In this document: piece after piece, positions 9,911 through 16,838 of the stretch
How the letters are laid out: each line of letters starts with the position of its first letter
Position numbering within the stretch: position 1 is the first letter of the stretch
Source: Flavobacterium faecale
Lineage (GTDB): Bacteria; Bacteroidota; Bacteroidia; Flavobacteriales; Flavobacteriaceae
NCBI RefSeq assembly: GCF_003076455.1
Contig: NZ_CP020918.1
Coordinates: forward strand, 930,001 to 994,000
Length of the DNA: 64,000 nucleotides
Direction of reading: 5' to 3'
The notes under the pieces: generated by a model
What the model was told of the DNA's origin: nothing
Database searches by the model: none
Seen by the model: the letters and a program-made list of their open reading frames with translations, nothing else
Made by a program: the position numbers and the translations under genes

Positions 9911-10216
9911 ATCTGAGCAAATCTACCTAGTTAGTCATTCTGCAAGAATGGCACACACGCATACACAACGAGGATCTGCAATCTGGGTCATTGCGAGGAA
10001 CGCGGCAATCACGTGCGGTGCGTCACTTTTTTTGAGTTGGAGATTTGATTTTAAACGATTATTATTAGTGATTTTTGTTGTCTAGTAACGGATATAGCTA
10101 CGGTAATTGTCAATAGGAATGAGCGCAAAGTCGAAGACATTTACGTAGCGTTCACGATGGAATCACCGTTTAAAAATAAAATTGGGCATTATACTTTGCG
10201 GAGCGGGGGAACCAGA
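9911..10216. repeat. Intergenic repeat, long copy 1
   Basis: About 300 bp of non-coding sequence that recurs at 12950-13211 with moderate similarity. Shared blocks: GAGCAAATCT, a small palindrome ATTGC-N10-GCAAT (9990-10009), TCTAGTAACGGAT, GCTACGGTAATTGTCAATAG and a GCG-AAGTCGAAGACATTT block ending in TTGCGGAGCGGG. The 808-nt gap 9780-10587 contains this copy, a hairpin at 10335-10364 and nothing else recognised. Confidence 0.65.
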
Positions 10217-12005: not shown

Positions 12006-12030
12006 AACGTAGTCTACTACTATAAATACA

Positions 12031-12130
12031 ATCTCGTCGCGCAAAGTCAGAGACATTTACGCAGCGTTCATGATGAAATTTTCATTTGAAAACTGAATTA
12101 AGAAATATACTTCACAGCTGGTCATATACA
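12031..12130. repeat. Intergenic repeat, short copy 1
   Basis: Contains GCGCAAAGTCAGAGACATTT, then a GCAGCGTTCATGATG block and an AATTAAGAAATATACTT tail, the 3' core of the repeat family. It lies right after the 11616 reading frame. Confidence 0.55.
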
Positions 12131-12159
12131 AAATATAATAAGTATTAGCTACTATAATT

Positions 12160-12262
12160 ATCATTGTTGATGGGCGCAAAGTCGGAGACATTTGCGCAGC
12201 ATTCACGATTAGATTGCCGTTAGAAAATTGAATTAGGAATTATAGCTCGTACAGCGGGTGAT
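12160..12262. repeat. Intergenic repeat, short copy 2
   Basis: Tandem second copy of the core: GGCGCAAAGTCGGAGACATT, then TTGCGCAGCATTCACGAT and AATTAGGAATTATA. With the previous copy it fills the 326-nt gap 12006-12331. A further fragment with GAGACTTCGCACAGCTGG follows at 12310-12328. Confidence 0.55.
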
Positions 12263-12949: not shown

Positions 12950-13211
12950 AAATCTCTCTGAATTTACTTCCACAATAGTCATCCACAATCTTGATTATTG
13001 AGAGGAACGCGACAATCACGTACAGTGCATCACTTTTTATTCAGCTGATTTGATTTTATAGTATTAATTTGGTGCTTTATGTGTTCTAGTAACGGATTAG
13101 CTACGGTAATTGTCAATAGGAATGAGCGCTAAGTCGAAGACATTTGCGCAGCATTCACGATGGAATTTCCATTTGAACATTGAGTTAATAATTATACTTT
13201 GCGGAGCGGGT
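12950..13211. repeat. Intergenic repeat, long copy 2
   Basis: Second long copy, aligned with 9911-10216 from GAGCAAATCT to TTGCGGAGCGGG. The middle is diverged while the blocks TCTAGTAACGGAT, TTGTCAATAGGAATGAGCGC and GTCGAAGACATTT are retained. It fills the 332-nt gap between the DUF805-like gene and the PD-(D/E)XK-like gene. Confidence 0.65.
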
Positions 13212-13218
13212 AACGTTT

Positions 13219-13905
13219 TTATTTATCTACTTCTAAATACAAATTTTCTATATCAATCAATTCTGAATTTTCTATATTCAAATACTTTTTCATTTTTTTA
13301 ATTTCGTCAGACCATTCTTTTATGTTTTGAGGTGATTTTCTATTTTTAGAGATCATATCTCCAATAAAATATATATTGACTAACTTAGATTTTATTCCAG
13401 ATCGTTTTAACAAATCTAGGACATAAATTCTATTCGCAAGTTGATAATATTTTTCAGTCCAAGGATTGTCCTCAATGATTGCAATCCTATTATTTTCGGC
13501 TGTTTTCAATAATGTTTTCTCAATTTTTAATAGACTATTTTCTGAAGCTCCGCTACTTTGGCTAAGTTCTCCCAAATGTGCTTTAGCTTCTATTAGAATC
13601 CAAGTTTTAATTCCATTTTGGATTGTATACCCTATTAAGTCCCAATTCATTGAATTTCCTTTTTGAGGCCATTCTTTTTTCCAATTAGACAATAATTCTT
13701 GGTAATTTGGTTCATTTTCTAAAAAAGACAAACCTACTAATTCTTTATCTGGTATATCTTTTCCTTTGTCAAAATCAAAGTCTACCCAAGAAATATTATC
13801 AATATGTAATAATTCTTTAACTCTTTTATCAAACTCATTTCTATGTCGTCCCGTCCATCTCAAAAGGTGAAATTCACTCCCGTAACCTAATGCCATTTTT
13901 CCCAT
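13219..13905 (-). CDS. PD-(D/E)XK nuclease-like protein
   Basis: Protein of 228 residues. The core NWDLIGY (D89), then WILIEAKAHLGEL (E106, K108) gives a D...ExK pattern on adjacent strands, as in PD-(D/E)XK nucleases. The N-terminal YGSEFHLLRWTGRHRNEF with E11 may supply the helix-1 acid. No specificity domain or partner methylase is present. It is a single-gene unit flanked on both sides by the intergenic repeat. A role in DNA defence or repair is inferred from fold features only; a non-catalytic member is also possible. Confidence 0.5.
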   Translation of the reverse strand: MGKMALGYGSEFHLLRWTGRHRNEFDKRVKELLHIDNISWVDFDFDKGKDIPDKELVGLSFLENEPNYQELLSNWKKEWPQKGNSMNWDLIGYTIQNGIKTWILIEAKAHLGELSQSSGASENSLLKIEKTLLKTAENNRIAIIEDNPWTEKYYQLANRIYVLDLLKRSGIKSKLVNIYFIGDMISKNRKSPQNIKEWSDEIKKMKKYLNIENSELIDIENLYLEVDK

Positions 13906-13984
13906 ATTTTAATCAGTCTAATTCGTTATTTAAGTTTAATGTTAGTTGGTTTGCATAATGTTACCCAACGTTGTTATGTATGAT

Positions 13985-14120
13985 TAGTAATAGAAGGTTG
14001 GTTTTATTGCAATGGCAATTAGGAATGGGTGCGAAGTCGGAAGACTTCGCACAGCTGAGACATTTGCGCAGCGTTCGCGATGTCTTTGCCGTTTGAAAAT
14101 AATACTTTGCGAAAAGGGTT
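13985..14120. repeat. Intergenic repeat with a perfect 10-bp hairpin
   Basis: Copy of the repeat core in which GTGCGAAGTC (14029-14038) and GACTTCGCAC (14043-14052) form a perfect stem with loop GGAA. A GACATTTGCGCAGCGTTC block follows, then a tail ending in ATACTTTGCG. Just upstream, ACCCAACGTTGTTATG at 13962-13977 resembles a recombination core. Confidence 0.6.
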
Positions 14121-14121
14121 A

Positions 14122-15651
14122 TTAACGTTTAAATTCATCTCTTAACTCTATAAAATCAACTGGTAAAACTGGATTAGATATTACTTTCTTTTTTTCTTCC
14201 AAATTAATACCAAGCGATAAATAGATCATACTTGCTCTTATTAAAGTAATTAATTTTAAAGTTTTTTGTTCAAATTCATCCCTAGTAATTACAAATGTAA
14301 GTTCGTTGTCAAATAATCCACTTTCTACAAATTCTACAATTTTAAAAGATTTATGTTCAATAAAGTTCCTAATTTGAGCTAATTTTTTTGCTTCAGGTTC
14401 TATTGAATGTGAGAACTCTTCATTTTTCTCATATAAATCTTTACTTAACCAATATAAACCTTTGAAAGCCCAATTTTGGGTGTCAATTATTTTATTATTT
14501 ATTTTAACAGTTCTCGTTGACTTATCATAAAAACTCCAAATACCTCTAAATGAAACTTTTTCGGGTTTATGCTCTAAATCTAGATAATCATTCATTAGAT
14601 ATCCAATTTTGTCCAAAATAGAATAACATAATCTAAATGTAGTTTTAATTTTTTCACTACTATATGAGTAAACAGCATAATCTAACGTGTCTAGCTGGAT
14701 ATTATCTTTGTCGGAGTAATGTGTTTGCTTTTGAGTTAAACCTTCGAACAACAGATGTCTTGCAGAGACAAACTCTTGCTTTATTTGATTAAATATTGTT
14801 TGATAAATAGGTGGTTTATCAAACTTTAGAGTAATGGTAGGAAGTAGAAGACAATCATGTCCAGCAATATTATCTGTTATAACGTCATTGAGAGGGTTTA
14901 AGAAAAGATGGTTTTTTAAACACCAAGTTCTATATTCTTGTTCTGCTTTAGAATCACCAATAGAGAAAGTTTTTAAGTTTTGAATATCACTTAATTTTTC
15001 AATGTCAATGATAGATTCTAAAATACTTATAATATTTTTAAACGCGGCATTTGCTTCTTCATAAATATCTGTATTTATTGCTTTATTTAAATATTTATAA
15101 GCCAATTTTAAAAATAAAAGTTGATGACCACTATCGTATAGTATTTTGGAATAGTGGAAAAGACTAAATCCAATATTTCCAAGTGCCATTGAAAAAGTAG
15201 AGTCAATTTTTATTGCTCTCTGCCAATATAATTGAGCTTCTGAAAATCTACCCAAATGGCTGAACAATATTCCTAAATTAGTTAAAATCTCACATTTTTG
15301 CTGATTATTTCTACTGTTTTTAGAAAATGAAAGTGCTAATCGTAAATTAATTATTTGCTGTTCAGATTCCCTTAAATCAAAACTCCAAAATTCATCCGAG
15401 TTAAAATTTTGAGTTAATTGCTGGAGATATGACCAGCCATTTGCTACATTGTAATGAAAAGTCATTTTATTTTCATCTGAAAAACCTTCTAAATTTTGCT
15501 TTTCGGAAAGGTTTAAACCAAAATTAATATCTTTTTCACTTCCTGTTTCTCTACCTGTCTCAAAAATTATTGCCAATAAATTGACGACCTCAACTGGCTC
15601 AAAATTATTGAGGTGTTCTAAATTTAATATTTCGTTATAGGTGAAATCCAT
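14122..15651 (-). CDS. TPR plus HEPN-domain protein, LA2681-like
   Basis: Protein of 509 residues. The middle (about 120-210) has TPR-like helices (LTNLGILFSHLGRFSEAQLYWQ). The C-terminal helical domain has RNFIEH (428-433), the R-phi-xxx-H motif of HEPN RNases, in a setting resembling the LA2681-type HEPN family. HEPN proteins cleave RNA, often in abortive infection or toxin systems. The gene starts 80 nt after the end of the reading-frame extension of the SIR2-like gene, in the same direction, so the two may act together. No antitoxin-like small gene is adjacent. The HEPN call is moderately secure; the defence role is inferred. Confidence 0.65.
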   Translation of the reverse strand: MDFTYNEILNLEHLNNFEPVEVVNLLAIIFETGRETGSEKDINFGLNLSEKQNLEGFSDENKMTFHYNVANGWSYLQQLTQNFNSDEFWSFDLRESEQQIINLRLALSFSKNSRNNQQKCEILTNLGILFSHLGRFSEAQLYWQRAIKIDSTFSMALGNIGFSLFHYSKILYDSGHQLLFLKLAYKYLNKAINTDIYEEANAAFKNIISILESIIDIEKLSDIQNLKTFSIGDSKAEQEYRTWCLKNHLFLNPLNDVITDNIAGHDCLLLPTITLKFDKPPIYQTIFNQIKQEFVSARHLLFEGLTQKQTHYSDKDNIQLDTLDYAVYSYSSEKIKTTFRLCYSILDKIGYLMNDYLDLEHKPEKVSFRGIWSFYDKSTRTVKINNKIIDTQNWAFKGLYWLSKDLYEKNEEFSHSIEPEAKKLAQIRNFIEHKSFKIVEFVESGLFDNELTFVITRDEFEQKTLKLITLIRASMIYLSLGINLEEKKKVISNPVLPVDFIELRDEFKR

Positions 15652-15731
15652 GATTTTTTTTTTAGCTAGCTAGTTACGGTTACGTTATGGCAAGTACAAG
15701 CAATAAATTATATACGGCTTGGAAACAATAT

Positions 15732-15863
15732 TTATTCTTCATCAAATTTATTTTCGGCTTCTATCAGGGGTTCGTGCCATTTCCACAATTCCTCAAGAGT
15801 TTTAAAATTATTTGGTATTTTATTTCCATCTTGAAACATTTCATTAGGTGTTAATGGTATTGC
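15732..15863 (-). other. In-frame 43-codon continuation of the SIR2-like gene beyond TGA
   Basis: Translation continues in the same frame after the TGA at 15864-15866 for 43 codons to a TAA at 15732-15734. It gives a protein-like tail (AIPLTPNEMFQDGNK, later TLEELWKWHEPLIE). The composition looks coding, so the TGA is probably a recent nonsense mutation, a sequencing error, or a readthrough site. Confidence 0.6.
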
Positions 15864-16763
15864 TCAATGATGATAACTTTCTACTGTTCTTCTTGGATGC
15901 AAAGCTAATGATGATTCGAAATAATCTTTGCAATAGTGGTAATGACTTGAATGAATGAATGTCTTCCAAGATTTTAATAATTTTTTCTCATCTTGGATAT
16001 CTATTAATTCAAACTCTTCCATTGCTCTATCCTCTACATTTCCCCAAGCTTTTTGAAGTAGTTCGATTGCTTCTACGTCACTCACTGGTGCAGAATATCC
16101 AAAAACAGTAACTCTTTCAGCTTCTTCTAGTCTATTTCCGAGAGCTTCCCATTGTCCCTTTATAAAAGTATCACTATTATAATTTTTTTTGTCTACAGGA
16201 TATAATAATTTAGTTGGTTCAAAATCTCGCATTGTTTTTTTAGAAGTCCAGCCTGCATGTCCAACTGTACCATTTGATTCGTCAAATTCAAGTGAAACAC
16301 AACCGTGTAAATGCAAAATACCTGGACTTTCTACAAATTTGCTATTTCTTAAATAAGCTTTATACAGAAATGGATCCCAATTAAATGTTGCGATTATATC
16401 TTTCTTATGACGTAATGAAAGTATAAGGTGATCATATATTGTCGGTTCATCAGGCAATTCCAATTCGCTAAAATATTTATAGACTACTTTTTCTACATAT
16501 TCTCTTTCGGCTTTATATTTATCATCCTTTGCCAATAAACTATATAGTTTTTCAAAATCTTCTTTTAAAAGTTGATATTCTTTTGGTAACTCATTAACTA
16601 CATTAGTTAATCCTACAATGTCAATTACATTCCACATTAAAGGAAGTAGTTTTCCGTTTTTTTCAGGATTTCTTAATGTCGAAGCATAGGTAGCTCCAGC
16701 TCCAAGAATGACAACGTGCGCCCCTTTTCCGTGTACGATTTCTATTTCTTCCTCTCTGTTCAT
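15864..16763 (-). CDS. SIR2-like (SIR2_2-type) domain protein, apparently truncated
   Basis: SIR2-fold protein. The start is set at the ATG at 16763; an upstream ATG at 16802 would add 13 poorly conserved residues. Numbered from 16802, the motifs are the nucleotide loop VVILGAGAT (30-38), TFNWDPF with N141, LHLHG with H164/H166, and KGQWEALGNRL...GYSAP (215-239). These are typical of bacterial SIR2-like NADase or ADP-ribosyl-type domains found in antiphage systems. The frame stops at TGA but a coding-like tail continues in frame. Its downstream neighbour encodes a TPR-HEPN protein. NAD cleavage is inferred from the family. Confidence 0.7.
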   Translation of the reverse strand: MNREEEIEIVHGKGAHVVILGAGATYASTLRNPEKNGKLLPLMWNVIDIVGLTNVVNELPKEYQLLKEDFEKLYSLLAKDDKYKAEREYVEKVVYKYFSELELPDEPTIYDHLILSLRHKKDIIATFNWDPFLYKAYLRNSKFVESPGILHLHGCVSLEFDESNGTVGHAGWTSKKTMRDFEPTKLLYPVDKKNYNSDTFIKGQWEALGNRLEEAERVTVFGYSAPVSDVEAIELLQKAWGNVEDRAMEEFELIDIQDEKKLLKSWKTFIHSSHYHYCKDYFESSLALHPRRTVESYHH

Positions 16764-16782
16764 ATTGTTGCCAACTCGTTTA

Positions 16783-16838
16783 TATGTATCACAATACACC
16801 ACCCAATTATGAGTGCTTATGTATCACAAATATGATAC
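16783..16838. promoter_or_regulatory. Candidate operator upstream of the SIR2-like gene
   Basis: A 12-nt direct repeat TATGTATCACAA at 16783-16794 and 16818-16829. The second copy is part of a perfect inverted repeat GTATCA-N6-TGATAC (16821-16838). It lies just upstream of the chosen start and would suit a dimeric repressor, but no cognate regulator is nearby. Confidence 0.4.

Follow-up and report, generated by a model that had tools for sequence, protein, structure and literature searches.

The SIR2 domains of the defence proteins KomC/HAM-SIR2, ThsA, DSR2 and Avs5 carry or accompany other sensor parts, and SIR2-HerA is presumably the system that has been named Nezha. Integrons, the core site of which has the consensus GTTRRRY, have recently been described as stores of phage defence genes. 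In Anantharaman et al. (2013; PMC3710099), HEPN domains of the LA2681 family are recorded both fused to TPR and in an operon with TPR; no functional test of this family was encountered in the literature. In Flavobacterium faecale, the 4.6-Mb genome of which is a single contig (NZ_CP020918.1), a SIR2-like gene and a gene encoding a TPR-HEPN protein of the LA2681 family lie one behind the other within a stretch of 64,000 nt (chromosomal positions 930,001 to 994,000; hereafter the window, in which positions are numbered unless the chromosome is named). A first-pass annotation made from the sequence had proposed that the two act together as an abortive-infection module. We consider instead, with a probability of about three in four, that they are two separately acquired single genes of defence type which became adjacent by chance insertion, the SIR2 copy being shortened and the TPR-HEPN gene being a lone member of its family.

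Both open reading frames (ORFs) were found where the first-pass annotation had placed them, on the minus strand (Table 1), and the question was whether their relatives keep the same company. For SIR2, the best 80 of 251 confirmed genome stretches were read together with six viral loci and three plasmid loci (taken from six plasmid records with a match), giving 89 loci with flanks of at most 6 kb, which were often shorter and in many cases curtailed by contig ends. For LA2681, 13 loci and eight from viral contigs were read, giving 21. An LA2681 gene was detected near SIR2 in none of 86 loci by tblastn (E ≤ 0.01) and in none of the 89 by profile (E ≤ 0.001; best match 0.0098); the profile, for which the window protein was combined with 14 complete or partial LA2681 sequences, recovered all eight viral LA2681 genes. 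Conversely, the SIR2 profile found nothing at E ≤ 1 near LA2681, either in the 13 loci or in the eight. Homologues of the two genes were thus never adjacent in the loci examined, and the two-gene SIR2 plus TPR-HEPN system, in which one member is moreover shortened, was rejected; that the pair functions as one system is very unlikely. In a draw of 395 genomes from the phylum, the SIR2 family was present in eight and LA2681 in four, the window's genome being the only one with both, and a separate draw of 395 genomes from the order added one LA2681 genome.

With regard to the SIR2 gene itself, the alignment of relatives favours the ATG at 16763 over the upstream GTG, and this ATG is most likely the start. 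Relatives of 47 to 65% identity with open frames of 337 to 359 residues occur in seven genomes besides its own (395 searched), and hence the ORF is not a chance one. The window frame ends at a TGA (15864-15866), beyond which the reading frame continues for 43 further codons to a TAA (15732-15734). Because the sequence after the TGA resembles the C-termini of the relatives, and given the length of their frames, we conclude that the gene is cut short. The first-pass annotation had measured 80 nt between an extended SIR2 frame and the TPR-HEPN gene; this spacing is exact from the TAA, but the premature TGA, which costs the protein its conserved C-terminus, was overlooked, and the gap from the actual stop to the TPR-HEPN ATG is 212 nt. 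The lost part contains W329, L333 and E337, nearly invariant in an alignment of 55 sequences, and in a structure model of a close relative (locus L039, from Tenacibaculum, 90% identical to the window protein) it is modelled confidently, with a block mean predicted local distance difference test (pLDDT) score of 93 to 98 for residues 311 to 340. The window copy is shortened before a conserved C-terminal helix. The shortening is probably recent, and the resulting product is probably inactive or impaired.

The four SIR2 motifs named by the first-pass annotation were all located, GAGAT at residues 21-25, TFNWD at 126-130, LHLHG at 150-154 and GYSAP at 222-226, and the SIR2 fold was borne out by the L039 model (pLDDT 90.1, predicted template modelling score 0.90, with the 55-sequence alignment as input). 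A Foldseek search with this model returned a SIR2-HerA chain at the top (E 3.2e-8, template modelling score approximately 0.5) followed by archaeal sirtuins; in a VIA comparison, SIR2-HerA, KomC, ThsA, Avs5 and DSR2 led with sirtuins close behind. N128 of TFNWD is nearly invariant and H153 of LHLHG invariant among the 55 sequences, both are kept in the window, and they correspond to the conserved active-site Asn and His of defence SIR2 NADases. Fold and conserved Asn and His point to a family of small proteins of approximately 340 residues that are predicted NADases (enzymes consuming nicotinamide adenine dinucleotide, NAD). The window protein gave nothing above cut-off against Pfam, NCBIfam and PADLOC (one chance NCBIfam match, 0.066), its relatives likewise gave nothing above cut-off in these or in PHROGs (the latter with two relatives, the window protein being left out), and phmmer against PDB sequences produced one chance match (0.097). 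A known SIR2 defence system was ruled out as far as profiles of Pfam, PADLOC and NCBIfam can recognize one. SIR2-HerA shares 13 to 18% identity with proteins of the window type, which PADLOC does not match, and unlike KomC/HAM-SIR2, ThsA, DSR2 and Avs5, these proteins consist of a lone domain of approximately 340 residues with a C-terminal helix of its own. The nearest named relatives in the genome scan belong to the Flavobacteriaceae; the family is common to several genera there and is absent from Pfam, NCBIfam and PADLOC.

The TPR-HEPN protein matches HEPN_LA2681 (PF18733) with an E-value of 1.6e-69 and 233.8 bits against a curated cut-off of 27, so its ORF is not a chance one either, and the HEPN assignment of the first-pass annotation was confirmed. 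The RNFIEH motif lies near the C-terminus as had been described (Table 1); its R and H are invariant in nine of nine sequences in both of two alignments, and the R-x4-6-H motif is present. The TPR part held with a narrow shortfall, the TPR_1 match (4e-6, 26.9 bits) being slightly below the Pfam cut-off of 27.8. A helical model (pLDDT 80.8) gave weak Foldseek matches, many of them to TPR chains, the best at E 2.5e-3 and none at E ≤ 0.001. With TPR ahead of the HEPN part and an R-x4-H motif, the protein is like the LA2681 family, nothing distinguishes this copy from the family, and it is an ordinary, lone LA2681 gene. Matches were found in 21 plasmid records, nine neighbourhoods of which were read and had very different surroundings; two of the four genomic LA2681 loci were read gene by gene. 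Around the window gene, no cassette ends matching each other were seen. Among 50,697 phage records, SIR2 had no match and TPR-HEPN one, while six and eight loci, respectively, were found in IMG/VR (none for TPR-HEPN in a single-sequence scan); with so few phage and viral matches, neither fits a typical phage gene.

How the SIR2 gene may have arrived is indicated by its relatives. Seven close ones in other genera share 79 to 88% DNA identity with the window, and the similarity begins at 16772-16775 in six of the seven and ends at the frame end (15731) in five. At its start lies the 10-nt left end GTTGGCAACA, the exact complement of which stands at the stop of a downstream putAbiC gene in L039, L043 and L056, followed by a 3' arm ending in GTTG and then by genome-specific sequence; in L044, the complement lies behind a third gene. 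An exact 10-nt inverted repeat thus bounds the cassette in these four relatives. More generally, in relatives of 82 to 90% protein identity from other Flavobacteriaceae, the SIR2 gene occupies an integron-like cassette, either by itself or together with a gene for a membrane protein of the AbiC family. As in integron cassettes, the genes run in one direction and have mutually complementary GTT and AAC ends, and some relatives have what may be long imperfect palindromes; the end GTTGGCA is, however, unlike the integron core site. The window retains an exact left end and a right end complementary to it at eight of ten positions, the latter followed by an apparent 5' arm of an attC-like site, with no 3' arm seen. 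Resemblance to L040 can be traced as far as 15690, and another site in L039 has a match to 15699-15741 (44 nt, 82%). The window SIR2 gene looks like a stray cassette starting to decay, with the TPR-HEPN gene in the place of the next cassette.

An exact GTT plus seven nucleotides (GTT-N7) with its complement downstream was found in nine of the 84 SIR2 loci (from 86) in which the start was recognizable, directly behind an ORF in eight of the nine; swapped pairs gave 1.3%, and each of 19 control triplets zero to three loci. The nine include L039, L043, L044 and L056, which are close relatives and thus not independent. A looser test was weak (12 of 83 loci with at least 9 nt, against 3.9%). Nine stretches were also folded as DNA to look for attC-like palindromes. 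Before SIR2, z values were -3.98 in L056, -3.01 in L043, -1.81 in L040 and -1.05 in the window; after putAbiC, they were -3.21 in L039, -1.72 in L056 and -1.55 in L043. An empty insertion site was not found, the best relatives of the next upstream gene in a draw from the genus being 53% identical, at which point the search was stopped.

In most of its closest relatives, the SIR2 gene is accompanied by a gene other than TPR-HEPN. In nine (L039, L041, L043-L047, L056, L059) of the 12 closest loci (at least 68% identity: L039-L048, L056, L059), SIR2 is followed by a putAbiC-cluster gene (PF16872), which encodes a membrane protein and is absent from the window. It overlaps SIR2 in four of these loci, follows by 22 or 23 nt in four and by 213 nt in L056; its frame is split in two in L047, and the open frame begins late in L056. 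The pair of SIR2 and putAbiC-cluster genes is a better candidate system than the window pair, and no paper joining SIR2, AbiC and "defense system" was found in the literature searched. A third gene follows putAbiC in L041 and L044, that of L041 (the only one scanned) being a second, ThsA-like SIR2. Other neighbours were varied and included an AbiV-type HEPN gene 5' of SIR2 in L039, an AbiJ-type gene 3' of it in L042 and, in one or two cases each, restriction and schlafen families. On a plasmid of Vibrio coralliilyticus (L138:1782-6032), the SIR2 gene is preceded by a HerA-type ATPase (DUF87, 4.8e-17) that lies directly behind a gene weakly matching SIR2_2 (0.0008, below cut-off); this may be a defence island in which the HerA gene and the weak SIR2_2 gene perhaps form a separate SIR2-HerA pair. 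No HerA model appeared among the 25 neighbour families listed out of 35 and out of 63. In five loci of Proteobacteria (L096, L099, L105, L107, L108), the sequence downstream of SIR2 has, by eye, what we take to be a resemblance to classical attC sites, so that ordinary integrons may carry the family as well; L096 alone among them had exact ends.

Cassette-like structure extends beyond the SIR2 loci. The 5' arm, allowing one mismatch, occurs in 32 of 149 Flavobacteriaceae genomes, that of the window not being among the 32, and a reversed control in none. Two loci that were read resemble arrays of short, co-oriented genes (13 of 14 ORFs share one direction in L185, and 16 of 16 do so in L186). 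A tyrosine recombinase heads the array in L186, and in L056 it lies 2.2 kb ahead of the SIR2 cassette. Relatives of this recombinase are encoded by 70 of the 100 genomes from the family that were searched (E ≤ 1e-40), among them that of the window, at chromosomal positions 2350964-2351992 (48% identity). By a hand count over the 100 genomes, it was present in 19 of 20 that bear the arm and in 51 of the 80 others; arm and recombinase were on one contig in eight of the 19 (1.2 to 9.9 kb apart in seven, 48 kb in one) and on different contigs in 11. A 10-nt inverted repeat from start to end was found at 20 of 92 ORFs with same-strand neighbours, against 0.44% in shuffled pairs; none was longer, and all but one of the 20 have AAC as their last three nucleotides. 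In ten recombinase-linked loci, most of which had been picked by means of the 5' arm, 21 of 140 ORFs had private GTT-N7 ends, compared with one match in total over 12 control triplets, none of 62 ORFs in the window and one of 75 in other controls. Among 30 recombinase loci picked without the arm (1.5-kb flank), seven had such ORFs, against none of 35 control loci. Integron-like arrays with private GTT-N7/N7'-AAC ends near a recombinase of this type were noted in L186, L218-L222 and L225, as well as in the F. faecale genome itself (L217, chromosome 2333000-2352800), where the recombinase is accompanied by two of the 21 ORFs with exact ends (444 and 196 residues).

The recombinase is most similar to archaeal XerA, integron-integrase and XerC/D models. 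Earlier work describes an additional domain that is unique to IntI and serves to recognize integron integrases (PMC2426708; PMC8352920). The array-linked recombinases differ from IntI in having no such insertion: between two matched stretches, IntI4 has 43 residues and the L056 recombinase two, and in 15 recombinase ORFs recognized by motif (some being the same gene in two loci), 64 or 65 residues separate the two motifs. Against the integron-integrase model TIGR02249 (cut-off 265 bits), three array-linked recombinases scored 181.7 to 213.4 bits in two stretches; in the window's genome, no integron integrase exceeded the cut-off, the best being fragmentary matches at 2.35 Mb, which scored 104.4 and 97.6 bits. 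NF040815 ("site-specific tyrosine recombinase/integron integrase") covers two of the three above its cut-off, and hence part of the array system may be on record. Integrons have been reported from Bacteroidota (PMC8618304; PMC9668308), and in titles and abstracts on integrons in Bacteroidetes and Flavobacteria no account of such arrays was found. Cassettes in the phylum are thus known; arrays with a recombinase that lacks the IntI domain may be new. We tentatively suggest, at somewhat short of even odds, that the Flavobacteriaceae, including this strain of F. faecale, hold an integron-like system in which arrays of co-oriented cassettes, each with private 10-nt ends (GTT-R-N6 ahead of the start and its complement behind the stop), adjoin a mostly SPLD-tailed tyrosine recombinase without the IntI insertion, that its cargo consists partly of abortive-infection genes, among them the undescribed SIR2 family and its AbiC-like partner, that one stray cassette, now decayed, lies in the window, and that surveys relying on the IntI domain would miss the system. 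Movement of the cassettes by the recombinase is inferred.

Several observations weigh against viewing the window genes as chance neighbours, one of them delivered by a cassette. They are co-directional and lie 80 to 212 nt apart, and may be co-transcribed here; with 80 of 251 stretches read, records close to the window's genome may have been omitted and the pair could have escaped notice in some small clade. Flanks at contig ends were moreover short in many loci. The interval between SIR2 and TPR-HEPN has no significant fold (z 0.16) and lacks the type of repeat found behind the next three genes; exact cassette ends occur at none of the 62 window ORFs; the 5' arm pattern has no match in the window's genome, where near-matches to the left end elsewhere are no commoner than those to a reversed control. 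Lacking a fold, exact end pairs and an arm match in its own genome, the window is read as holding a cassette on the strength of its relatives. One alternative is a true abortive-infection module of two genes, confined to this lineage, in which SIR2 would deplete NAD, HEPN would cut RNA and the TPRs would act as sensors. It would agree with the shared strand, the close spacing and the defence-type nature of both families, but the partner was in none of the 89 and 21 loci, the window SIR2 is shortened, and putAbiC takes the place of TPR-HEPN in most close SIR2 relatives; we regard such a module as very unlikely and prefer the separate acquisition of two single genes.

The remaining alternatives concern the state and origin of the SIR2 gene. 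Were the TGA a sequencing or assembly error, or read through, the gene would be intact and would work alone; that the 43 codons beyond it are open and resemble those of intact relatives fits either an error or a very recent change, whereas the assembly is a single contig, and we hold this explanation to be unlikely. It is about as unlikely that the short product is functional: GAGAT, TFNWD, LHLHG and GYSAP precede the stop and are all retained, but nearly invariant residues (W329, L333, E337) fall in the lost part, and the C-terminal end receives high confidence scores in the L039 model. As for the cassette, the SIR2 gene could be an ordinary horizontally moved gene, its GTT-N7 ends being a coincidence of short repeats. 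The left end alone is exact in the window, and global counts of GTT-N7 pairs show no excess (20 in the window against a mean of 17.6 for other triplets; 242 in the 86 SIR2 loci against 280 for TTC, 272 for TTG and 246 for CAA); only tests that take account of position, at the edges of ORFs, give a positive result. Those tests, namely exact ends at ORF edges in the SIR2 loci (9/84 against 1.3%), near the recombinase family (21/140 ORFs against the single control match) and in the recombinase loci chosen without the motif (7/30 against 0/35), make coincidence a distinctly improbable explanation, and a cassette origin is favoured.

Table 1. Features of the window around the SIR2-like and TPR-HEPN genes
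Feature	Positions	Strand	Remarks
SIR2-like ORF	15864..16763	-	299 aa from ATG; 312 aa from upstream GTG at 16802; stops at in-frame TGA
SIR2 frame continuation past TGA	15732..15863	-	43 codons and TAA; resembles C-terminus of intact relatives
SIR2 cassette left end GTTGGCAACA	16766..16775	-	immediately 5' of ATG
SIR2 cassette right end, decayed	15718..15727	-	8/10 nt complementary to left end
TPR-HEPN gene, LA2681 family	14122..15651	-	509 aa, intact frame
HEPN motif RNFIEH, residues 428-433	14353..14370	-	R428 and H433 invariant
Repeat element directly 3' of TPR-HEPN gene	13987..14119	-	partly common to 13096-13211, 12144-12259 and 12009-12124
Next gene, 228 aa, without family	13219..13905	-	GTTGGGTAAC (13960-13969) before, GTTACCC (13208-13214) right after

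The 228-residue gene that follows (Table 1) is possibly another decayed cassette. The repeat next to the TPR-HEPN gene, approximately 116 to 160 nt long, also occurs at 10045-10207 of the window and at chromosomal positions 908326-908465; five chromosomal places were found, all inside 908-944 kb, and in three of the five it adjoins the stop of a minus-strand gene (window 13219 and 14122; chromosome 908476). Its core, approximately 30 nt long, is present in 14 of the 101 genomes searched from the genus, the window's included. Folded as DNA, the copy after TPR-HEPN has a z value of -5.05, yet as separate small hairpins. The 116-nt repeats were considered as attC sites and rejected, having no private complementary ends.

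On these grounds, each gene would act by itself. The SIR2 family protein would remove NAD and thereby kill or stall the infected cell, and in the Flavobacteriaceae its gene is found in integron-like cassettes, alone or with its AbiC-family membrane partner. The TPR-HEPN protein would most likely be a HEPN ribonuclease restrained or triggered via its TPR part, independently of SIR2. Both activities, and an antiphage role, are predictions from motif and fold. Setting aside the SIR2/TPR-HEPN pair spares a wasted experiment, and the main interest of the locus lies less in the window pair than in the cassette system and in the SIR2 family with its AbiC-like partner: what is gained is a SIR2 family without a profile across genera of the Flavobacteriaceae, accompanied by an Abi protein of the membrane, together with a likely route of transfer. 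If the recombinase moves these cassettes, integron-type gene capture would be possible without the domain specific to IntI, and the Bacteroidota would hold a reservoir of defence genes that has gone uncounted.

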